Source of the DNA: an uncultured Fodinibius sp.
GTDB lineage: Bacteria > Bacteroidota > Rhodothermia > Balneolales > Balneolaceae
Assembly (NCBI GenBank): GCA_913056235.1
Contig: CAJXMW010000006.1
Location: 1-64,000 of the forward strand
Reading direction: 5' to 3'
Length of the DNA: 64,000 bases
The notes under the pieces are model-generated. The model was not told where the DNA came from. It did no database searches and saw nothing but the letters and a program-made list of their open reading frames with translations. The position numbers were made by a program, and so were the translations under genes. Position 1 is the first letter of the stretch; each line of letters starts with the position of its first letter. This document shows, piece by piece, positions 1 through 17,249 of this stretch.

Positions 1-70
1 TAGCCGCTTAAAAGCTAGCAGAATTTTTTGGCCAACCTTTTGACAAAACGAGGTGGCCTTTCGCCGCGCA

Positions 71-77
71 GCCTAAC
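71..77 (-). other. Candidate attI core recombination site (GTTAGGC)
   Basis: On the minus strand this reads GTTAGGC, a match to the GTTRRRY core at which integron integrases cut between G and TT. It is preceded by AAG and lies about 205 bp from the intI start, on the side and at roughly the distance known for attI1 from intI1. A 7-bp degenerate motif also occurs by chance, so the position relative to intI is the main support. Confidence 0.45.
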
Positions 78-175
78 CTTTAATTATCTCAAGTAGGTAA
101 TAGTATAAATTTTTATCGTTCAAGTGAATAGTGTCTCAAATAAATGCTTAAAGTTCAAAATGTTTATTATAACGG

Positions 176-207
176 AATATTATATCACAGCTAATTGATA
201 TAATATT
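176..207. repeat. Perfect 12-bp inverted repeat upstream of intI
   Basis: The left arm 176-187 (AATATTATATCA) is exactly complementary to the right arm 196-207 (TGATATAATATT), with an 8-nt spacer. It ends 75 bp before the integrase start codon and the right arm contains TATAAT. It could be an operator or part of attI; it matches no LexA box that I can name. Confidence 0.55.
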
Positions 208-282
208 GAAACATAATATTTACTTGTAAGGATAGCTCTGGCTGAGGGTCTTACTCCTAAAACATACATCAAGGGAGTAGCT

Positions 283-1248
283 ATGGCAAAATCAGCCTTG
301 TTGGGACAAATGCGAACGGAAATAAGAAGGCAAAACTATAGCTATCGAACGGAGCAGGCCTATACCAAATGGGTGGTTAGATTTGTGAAATTCCACAATC
401 TCAGGCATCCCAAAAAAATGGGTGAGCAGGAAGTTGAGGAATACCTCAATTACTTGGCGGATGAACGCAATGTAGCGGCATCAACCCAAAACCAAGCCTT
501 GTGTGCTATACTGTTTCTTTATAAGCACGTTCTCGATCAGCCGCTGGAAGAGATGATCGATTTCGAGAGGGCAAATACACCTAAAAAATTGCCGGTGGTG
601 CTAACAGCCGAAGAGGCTCAGCAGATACTGGCAATGATGGATGGAATGGCTAAACTGATTGCCCAGTTACTTTATGGTTCTGGATTGCGGATCTCTGAAT
701 GCCTACGTCTAAGGGTGCTGGATCTTGATTTTAGTTATAATCAAATTCAAGTGCGCTCTGGCAAGGGTAAGAAAGATCGTATCACCATCATGCCACAATC
801 CTGTAAGAGCAAGCTTAAACAGCAGGTCGAACGGGTAAAAAAGCTGCATCGCAAAGATGCAGCCCAGGGATATGCTGAAACGCTACTTCCCAAAGCATTG
901 TCTAAAAAATATCCCAATGCAGCCTCTGAATTCAAATGGCAATATTTATTTCCTTCACCAAAACGAGCCAAAGACCCGAGGTCGGGACTCGTCCACCGAC
1001 ATCATATTTCTGATTCTACGATCCAGCGCAAAGTCAAAAAGGCGGTGCAAGCTGCCGATATCAGTAAGCATGCTACCTGTCACACTCTGCGGCACAGTTT
1101 TGCCACGCATCTGCTAGAGGACGGATACGATATTCGCACCGTGCAGGAGCTGCTGGGCCATAAAAACGTGAACACAACCATGATCTATACGCACGTGATC
1201 AAGAATAAAGGAAGTGTAGTTAAATCTCCTATTGACGCTGGAGTTTAG
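283..1248 (+). CDS. intI: Integron integrase, tyrosine recombinase
   Basis: Site-specific tyrosine recombinase of the IntI family, which inserts and excises gene cassettes at attI and attC. The N-terminal SAM-like core-binding domain spans about residues 5-90 and the catalytic domain about 104-310. Visible catalytic residues are R136 (in LRISE), a lysine near 161-164 (GKGKKDR), H267 and R270 (HTLRH), H293 (LGHK) and Y302 (MIYTH). Residues about 203-225 (LPKALSKKYPNA...) followed by DPRSGLVHRHH are the extra segment that separates IntI from XerC/XerD. Length 321 aa is normal for the family. ATG is preceded by GGGAG. Nothing looks broken. Cassettes are not visible to the right; they would be expected to the left of the window. 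Confidence 0.93.
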   Translation: MAKSALLGQMRTEIRRQNYSYRTEQAYTKWVVRFVKFHNLRHPKKMGEQEVEEYLNYLADERNVAASTQNQALCAILFLYKHVLDQPLEEMIDFERANTPKKLPVVLTAEEAQQILAMMDGMAKLIAQLLYGSGLRISECLRLRVLDLDFSYNQIQVRSGKGKKDRITIMPQSCKSKLKQQVERVKKLHRKDAAQGYAETLLPKALSKKYPNAASEFKWQYLFPSPKRAKDPRSGLVHRHHISDSTIQRKVKKAVQAADISKHATCHTLRHSFATHLLEDGYDIRTVQELLGHKNVNTTMIYTHVIKNKGSVVKSPIDAGV

Positions 1249-15941: not shown

Positions 15942-17249
15942 TTATTTCTGAACGAACCGCATAGTTATAGGAACGCCTTTAAAACCGTATTCATCGCGTA
16001 TGCGGTTCTCTATAAACCGTCTATAGTTAGCCGGAAGTTCCTCGGGCTTATTCATAAAGAATTTAAATACCGGCGGATTTGATTTAACCTGGGTGCCGTA
16101 TTTGATTTTTAAGGGTACGCCGCGTCGCACTGGCAACGGTTTTTCTTTTAAAATCCGTTTAATAAAGTTGTTAAAGGGAGATGTTTTAATCGTTTTCTTG
16201 CGCTCCTGAAGCACCTCATCGGCCATGTCAATAACACGGTGAATACGTTGTCGATTAAGCGACGAAGCCGAAATGATGGGCACATACCTCATCATCGGCA
16301 CGCGTTCATAGACGTATTGTTCAAACTCGCGATGCACATTCGTGTCTTTGTCAGGCACCAAATCCCATTTATTTAATACGATAACAATGCCCTTGTTGTA
16401 ATTGGCGGCTTCGCGCAGAATTCGCTTGTCTTGCTCCTCAAAGCCACGCATAGCATCCAGCATCAAAATAGCGACGTCGCACTCTTTAAGCGCTCGGTCA
16501 GTGCGTACAGTGCTATAAAATTCTACATTTTCTTTAACCTTGGCTTTCTTGCGCAGACCAGCGGTATCAATAAGAATATAATCTTTACCATTGTAGGTCA
16601 TCTTGCTGTTGATAGAATCCCGCGTAGTCCCGGGGATATCAGTAACTAGACAGCGCTCGTCATCCAGCAAGGCATTGATAAAGCTACTTTTGCCCACATT
16701 GGGACGACCTACTATTGAAAGTTTGGGAATCGGCGACTTGGGCTCATCCTTTTCTTCCGGCAGCAGTTCTACAATTCGGTCCGACAGATCACCCGTTCCC
16801 CGACCGCTCAGTGCCGAAATCGGATACAGTTCCTTAAATCCCAGGGAATAAAATTCGGTGGCATTGAGCTCTCGTTCCTTGTTATCAGCCTTGTTGGCCA
16901 CCAGCAGTACCGGCTTATTCTGTTGGCGCAGCACCTGCGATACAGCCTCATCGAGGCTAGTGATTCCGGCTTCAGTGTCAACTACAAACAGGATTACATC
17001 GGATTCTTCGATCGCAATATGAACTTGCTCACGGATACCCGAAATCATGACGTCCGTTTCTTCTGGCAGGTATCCACCGGTGTCTATGACATTAAATTCA
17101 CGTCCGTTCCAAAAAGATTCGCCATAGTGGCGGTCCCGGGTAACACCGTACTGATCATCAACAATAGCCTTGCGGCTACCGATAAAACGATTAAAAATAG
17201 TAGATTTGCCAACGTTAGGGCGCCCTACAATAGAAACGACAGGGAGCAT
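15942..17249 (-). CDS. der: Ribosome assembly GTPase Der (EngA)
   Basis: Double-GTPase needed for maturation of the 50S ribosomal subunit. From the ATG at 17249 it is 435 aa, the normal length, with GRPNVGKS P-loops near residues 8 and about 185, DTGG and DTAG switch motifs, two NKxD motifs (NKAD, NKWD), and the C-terminal KH-like domain ending in GVPITMRFVQK. An in-frame GTG 15 codons upstream is open but adds a non-conserved stretch. Intact. Confidence 0.97.
   Translation of the reverse strand: MLPVVSIVGRPNVGKSTIFNRFIGSRKAIVDDQYGVTRDRHYGESFWNGREFNVIDTGGYLPEETDVMISGIREQVHIAIEESDVILFVVDTEAGITSLDEAVSQVLRQQNKPVLLVANKADNKERELNATEFYSLGFKELYPISALSGRGTGDLSDRIVELLPEEKDEPKSPIPKLSIVGRPNVGKSSFINALLDDERCLVTDIPGTTRDSINSKMTYNGKDYILIDTAGLRKKAKVKENVEFYSTVRTDRALKECDVAILMLDAMRGFEEQDKRILREAANYNKGIVIVLNKWDLVPDKDTNVHREFEQYVYERVPMMRYVPIISASSLNRQRIHRVIDMADEVLQERKKTIKTSPFNNFIKRILKEKPLPVRRGVPLKIKYGTQVKSNPPVFKFFMNKPEELPANYRRFIENRIRDEYGFKGVPITMRFVQK

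Follow-up and report, generated by a model that had tools for sequence, protein, structure and literature searches.

Integrons typically have one attI site, located close to the integrase gene, and a complete integron has been found in Salinibacter ruber M1, as stated in passages of PMC9024848, according to which attI sites outside class 1 also go undetected by IntegronFinder 2.0. Arrays of attC sites away from intI, at recurrent chromosomal positions, are reported from Xanthomonas in a section of PMC12444791, and CALINs are defined by attC sites alone. In the delta-attI type gene cassettes of mobile integrons, attI or fragments of it are situated downstream of a cassette gene within one array, and passages of PMC12901181 describe these sites as usable by IntI1.

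The integron described here is located at the start of a 64,000-bp stretch, below called the window, which comprises the first 64 kb of contig C6 (149,415 bp) in a Fodinibius genome (G000) of 3.97 Mb and nine contigs. It belongs to the sedentary chromosomal integrons, its host being a Fodinibius species, and resembles those of Vibrio and Xanthomonas in having an intI of the same family, an adjacent attI and attC cassettes with matching core repeats, and also in that the cassette proteins are mostly uncharacterised. In contrast to those integrons, most Fodinibius genomes carry attI copies at several loci. The attC arrays located away from intI (orphan arrays) occupy recurrent chromosomal positions, as CALINs do, but they are headed by a recognisable attI. 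Also the delta-attI type cassettes have an attI sequence away from the intI-proximal position, whereas in Fodinibius near-complete attI sites head separate chromosomal arrays. Dispersed attI sites, mostly without an integrase gene beside them, are not expected from existing integron descriptions. No description of attI-headed arrays without intI was found in the accessible sections of the open-licence literature on multiple attI sites, CALINs and Balneolota integrons, and no paper on a Fodinibius integron was found in the open-licence literature. The word stem Balneol is absent from the main text, as accessible, of a survey of hypersaline integrons (PMC7923331).

The integrase gene and its attI site

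The features at the start of the window are the following:
1–76, minus strand: start of the first gene cassette, of an ORF-less family, running leftward from attI and truncated where the contig ends.
71–77, minus strand: attI core GTTAGGC (crossover site), which reads GCCTAAC on the plus strand and was aligned with the intI-adjacent cores of congeners.
72–222, plus strand: attI region of about 150 bp, recognised by alignment, by an nhmmer profile and by the attI model R2 described below (76.5 bits, this copy being in the training set).
225–254, plus strand: intI leader TGTAAGG-N-GGTCTTAC, with one match in the window and none in 100 shuffles.
283–1248, plus strand: intI, an intact integron integrase gene of 321 aa with an ATG start.

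The product of the open reading frame at 283–1248 matched TIGR02249 (integron integrase) with 467 bits (cut-off 265, E 3e-140) over model positions 2–314 of 315. Its residues 9–317 matched the solved Vibrio IntI4 (PDB 2a3v; E 2e-93), and the alignment also covered the stretch between the catalytic halves. The protein belongs to the IntI family, its tyrosine recombinase residues being intact and the region specific to IntI being present. A tree of 77 proteins placed it among the IntI sequences, together with 31 from the same order and family (support 94/84), and separately from the two other, putatively Xer-type, tyrosine recombinases of the same genome (support 100/99). R136, H267, R270, H293 and Y302 were computed to stand at the expected catalytic places, their catalytic roles being assumed by us from the tyrosine recombinase family. 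The genome contained one strong IntI match.

The attI core at 71–77 lies 205 bp from the start codon of intI. The core motif alone is weak evidence, since a GTTRRRY core turned up by chance in 29% of cases when the first 282 bp were shuffled 1000 times. The approximately 150 bp beside the core aligned with the sequences that precede nine further copies of intI in the genus, so that this attI is homologous to nine other intI-adjacent sites. The leader (225–254) is kept before the aligned intI copies, G007 and the divergent copy G008c carrying variants of it. These results bear out what the first-pass annotation had read from the window, namely an intact IntI with its family-specific insert and a GTTRRRY core on the expected side at a distance of about 205 bp, and the check that it had proposed, the placement of IntI in a phylogeny, put the protein with the integron integrases, in agreement with TIGR02249.

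A LexA site of the Balneolota type, the motif being taken from a section of PMC7739468, was not supported before intI in G000, where the best candidate had six mismatches in 20 positions and was equalled in 21% of the shuffles. When the sequences before 11 intI copies were scanned, G003 and G005 had the best candidates, with five mismatches, equalled in 4% of the shuffles.

Cassettes of the intI-linked array and the contig ends

The window's left edge is the end of contig C6 and lies inside the first cassette. Bases 1–76 matched cassettes in L025, L151 and L125 with identities of 79.7–84.9% over 45–74 bp, and the starts of other cassettes in G000 with 82.6–84.9% over 46–53 bp. The attC model gave no match in the window at E values up to 0.01. 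A scan for the attC motif, covering the window and 10–20 kb from each other contig end of G000, located the motif at the ends of contigs C2, C4 and C6, while an additional match at the start of C2 was not attC-like. With the attC model R1, constructed from 14 aligned attC sites of 126–131 bp, at least 32 matches (E up to 0.1) were obtained in the genome, a few of them weak or partial. Contig C1 contains five attC sites at 1281–1287 kb and one at 1208 kb. The cassettes had been predicted to begin near base 76 and to run leftward beyond the window, where attC sites were to be searched for; the contig end at the left edge and the match of bases 1–76 to cassette starts agree with the prediction, and the search found its attC sites elsewhere in the genome.

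The attC sites, represented by the 14 aligned ones, all located outside the window, have R'', L'', L' and R' and a foldable bottom strand. The bottom strands of five of the 14 were folded and each formed a hairpin, with modest z-scores from -0.89 to -2.65. The junction tests used 148 of the 162 attC rows, and 14 partial or edge rows were left out. For successive attC sites separated by less than 1.5 kb, the core triplet with which a cassette begins was compared with the triplet of its own R'', and the two were identical in 63 of the 81 pairs (mean 7.3 and maximum 17 in 1000 shuffles), as expected of an integron if the cassettes were inserted as circles.

Thirteen of 16 proteins examined from the C2, C4 and C6 arrays were without a Pfam family, and the other three were a GNAT acetyltransferase, an Mrr-type nuclease and an IS110 transposase. 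PADLOC gave no match for six cassette proteins, and an Rfam search of the window and two array loci gave none either.

In G000 a DUF1499 gene is located 10 kb from the end of C2, and recC at the right end of C6. The end of C2 probably belongs together with the right end of C6, since the DUF1499 gene and recC are neighbours in G001, G003, G005, G006 and G009. The array of the window's intI presumably continues at the end of C4, as judged from synteny and by elimination. A join of the C2 end to the window's left edge, suggested by an 85% match of window positions 26–77, was dropped because the cassette type is repeated and because the DUF1499–recC synteny pairs the C2 end with the right end of C6.

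The ORF-less cassette family includes window positions 1–70, L025:15697-16362 and 16491-16865, L151:2743-3120, L125:485-716 and L083:9446-9675. Its members are about 68–75% identical between species over the longer matches and occur both in intI-linked and in orphan arrays. The family was also matched in G002 and, as short pieces, in G003. An RNA structure was not supported in five sequences of the family (covariation term +1.92).

Copies of attI away from intI

A second attI was found at the right end of C6, the far end of the window's contig. It is homologous to window positions 72–245 with an alignment score of 145 (mean 49 and maximum 67 in 200 shuffles), and a cassette and an attC follow it, while recC occupies the place of intI.

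The attI model R2 was built from 10 intI-adjacent attI sites only, and 12 genomes of the genus were searched with it, the assemblies compared being drafts. A match of at least 24 bits was counted as an orphan attI when the flank tested contained no complete intI; the limit was chosen with the best score of the control (22.4 bits) in view. Up to 150 candidates per genome were scored in the model searches, and the counts are lower bounds. At least 38 orphan attI sites were detected, in 10 of the 12 genomes: at least seven in G006, at least six each in G004 and G008, at least four each in G000 and G010, at least three each in G005 and G007, at least two each in G003 and G009, and at least one in G001. 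Among the matches listed for G002 and G011, no orphan attI of 24 bits was present, and in G011 there was no IntI match at 1e-60 either. Under a second set of filters, 34 of the 38 sites were listed again. Twenty-five scored 38 bits or more, the highest score being 77 bits. Three of the four orphan sites of G000 are weak (24–30 bits) and may have decayed. Contig C1 of G006, 1.83 Mb in length, carries five attI copies.

The control consisted of 18 relatives that lacked an IntI match at 1e-60; its best R2 scores were 22.4 and 18.2 bits. Relatives from outside the genus that do possess IntI, 15 in number, also remained below 24 bits, the best score being 20.1. With no score above 22.4 bits in these relatives, R2 itself shows the pattern of orphan attI sites in this genus only.

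The orphan loci are without an intact intI of their own next to attI, no complete intI being present within 2.4 kb on the intI side of the 38 sites (within 880 bp for G004_C32, where the contig ends). An N-terminal intI remnant of about 100 aa was found at two of the sites, while none was detectable in the flank tested at the other 36; the flank of G004_C31 had a 25% match to another recombinase. Sequence resembling the intI leader was left at four of the 38 sites. Loci such as A–D of G000 are clusters of attC sites, and some orphan attI sites are without two attC sites in the stretch taken.

An attC in the expected orientation was present on the cassette side of the core at 33 of the 38 orphan sites. 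Of the remaining ones, G004_C32 had only one attC, in the opposite orientation, and four had no attC in the stretch taken. In the 26 pairs within 1.6 kb, the core triplet of the orphan attI was identical to the triplet of the first attC in 16 (mean 3.2 and maximum 10 in 20,000 shuffles), and two or three of the three positions agreed in 23, ten of the 26 not being exact. Over all the orphan attI–attC pairs the triplet was exact in 20 of 33, and at the intI-adjacent sites in eight of nine. The three worst near pairs have an R'' without an intact AAC end, and one of them, G010_C2, has AAAGATC. Judging from the orientation and the triplet signature at the junctions, cassettes have been inserted at orphan attI sites at some time, past or present.

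Comparison of the flanks revealed that all four orphan loci of G000 recur in other species. Locus A was detected in three genomes (G000, G007 and G010), locus B in four (G000, G007, G005 and G009), locus C in four (G000, G009, G005 and G003), where the distance between attI and the shared flank differs between species by up to 1.3 kb, and locus D in three (G000, G004 and G010). Locus A is situated between the DUF1499 gene and recC, which in the five genomes named above adjoin each other with no attI detected. The distance between the two genes at locus A is 21 kb in G007 and 30 kb in G010; it is approximately 2.4 kb in G002, 5.9 kb in G008 and 9.3 kb in G011, and in G004 the genes are on different contigs. 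When the parts of the locus A array of three species (7.9, 19.2 and 21.6 kb) were compared, only one common protein match was found, with 31% identity. The content of the cassettes or flanks does not differ everywhere, because one 494-aa protein at locus B is 94% identical between G000 and G005.

Some further sequences were observed around these loci. In G000, katG (L025:10188-12422) separates the DUF1499 gene from the locus A array. G005 has a katG with 90% identity to it (L235:3123-5339), situated some kilobases past attC sites on the side of the intI array. The attI-less DUF1499–recC site of G009 (L221) contains a short stretch, TATAATGTTATGATATAATATT, which by eye resembles the far end of attI and is perhaps a remnant of it. 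A weak attI match of 14.3 bits precedes recC in G004.

The gene of the IS110-family transposase in G000 (L029:4852-5900) lies beside an attC in which AAAGATC stands in the place of R''. The same replacement is present at the first attC of the orphan arrays G004_C2, G005_C2 and G010_C2, and proteins 84–85% identical to the G000 transposase are encoded in arrays of G005 and G010. The pattern of R'' replacement looks as if an insertion sequence targets attC.

Origin and possible role of the dispersed attI sites

The integrase probably serves several dispersed attI platforms, the copies of which would have spread together with intI and been left behind after its decay. Beside intI, cassettes would be inserted at the core 71–77 and pushed leftward from attI, and the copies of approximately 150 bp at other chromosomal loci head arrays with the same attC family. 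The copies would most likely have arisen by duplication of attI together with a part or the whole of intI, after which the intI part would have decayed and attI stayed. The resident integrase, one in G000 and up to three in a congener, would most likely insert cassettes in trans, one enzyme thus feeding several arrays. It is about an even chance that the system is a multi-platform integron in the full sense, with one integrase and several attI sites heading arrays of their own, in which attI is a small repeated element copied or homogenised within the genome and kept by selection. Action in trans at the present day, selection on the attI sites and the way in which the copies spread are what we infer from comparison of the sequences.

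An attI can be more similar to another attI of the same genome than to the one at the corresponding locus of another species. For 24 of the 38 orphan attI sites the closest relative was in the same genome (mean 3.6 and maximum 12 in label shuffles). The attI of locus A in G007 is 0.93 identical to the attI of its own intI and 0.57 identical to that of locus A in G010, which in turn is 0.99 identical to another orphan site of G010, the between-genome median being 0.60. Either the attI copies have been exchanged or duplicated within the genomes, or insertion at the same places has recurred. In 29 orphan sites compared with the nearest intI-adjacent attI, the attI end tested had a mean identity of 0.75 and the adjoining leader one of 0.52, as if only attI was kept. 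As to a spread of attI by transposons, no flank common to all the copies was seen in the flank comparison.

In G028, which belongs to another genus, five attI copies were detected by DNA similarity and one more by the model (C67). The copies on C70 and C77 are accompanied by short 5' stubs of intI, and the one on C74 by a truncated intI. Duplication of attI together with intI and subsequent decay of intI are suggested by these stubs and by the intI remnants at the orphan sites.

An IntI match at 1e-60 was obtained in 10 of the 11 congeners, G008 having three. According to the tree, the genus has three IntI lineages, two of them in G008, and replacement of the integrase is therefore plausible. 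The IntI of G004, G009 and G010 belongs to lineage II, yet some of the orphan attI sites in these genomes are most similar to lineage I sites, and they may be relics of a lost integrase.

Lineage mismatches of this kind, together with the low scores of some orphan sites, the intI remnants at two of the 38 and the stubs in G028, would also fit a reading in which the orphan arrays are ordinary CALINs, relics of complete integrons with attI as a fossil at which nothing is inserted today; CALINs have been proposed to be degraded integrons in passages of PMC9024848. This reading is rather unlikely, as 25 of the 38 attI sites still score 38 bits or more although no intI was detected beside 36 of them in the flank tested, three species have different proteins in the compared parts of their locus A arrays, and the attI end of the 29 orphan sites is better kept than the adjoining leader. 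Off-target insertion at chance sites, one of the origins proposed for CALINs in a section of PMC8618304, would make the resemblance to attI coincidental and is highly improbable in view of the homology of about 150 bp on the side of the core away from the cassettes, with scores of up to 77 bits against 22.4 in the 18 IntI-less genomes. That only the intI-linked array is real and the others are its pieces misplaced by assembly can hardly be the case either: contigs C2, C4 and C6 of G000 do break inside arrays, and similar attC sites hamper assembly according to passages of PMC9024848, but orphan attI sites lie inside long contigs, such as the 1.83-Mb contig of G006 with its five copies, and have flanks common to several species.

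With one attI beside the integrase, an array is a single queue of which the front alone is near the entry point. If the integrase does serve dispersed attI platforms, a genome with several of them would have several fronts, and some CALINs would be entry points and not debris; such platforms would escape IntegronFinder 2.0. Fodinibius offers a direct way of testing whether CALINs are dead or are supplied in trans.

Apart from the orphan loci, partial N-terminal copies of intI were also observed close to complete ones. In both G007 (L078) and G010 (L082) the full intI is accompanied, no more than 2.4 kb away, by a second copy that is N-terminal and partial, and the identities of these second copies are 72% over 100 aa and 53% over 91 aa.
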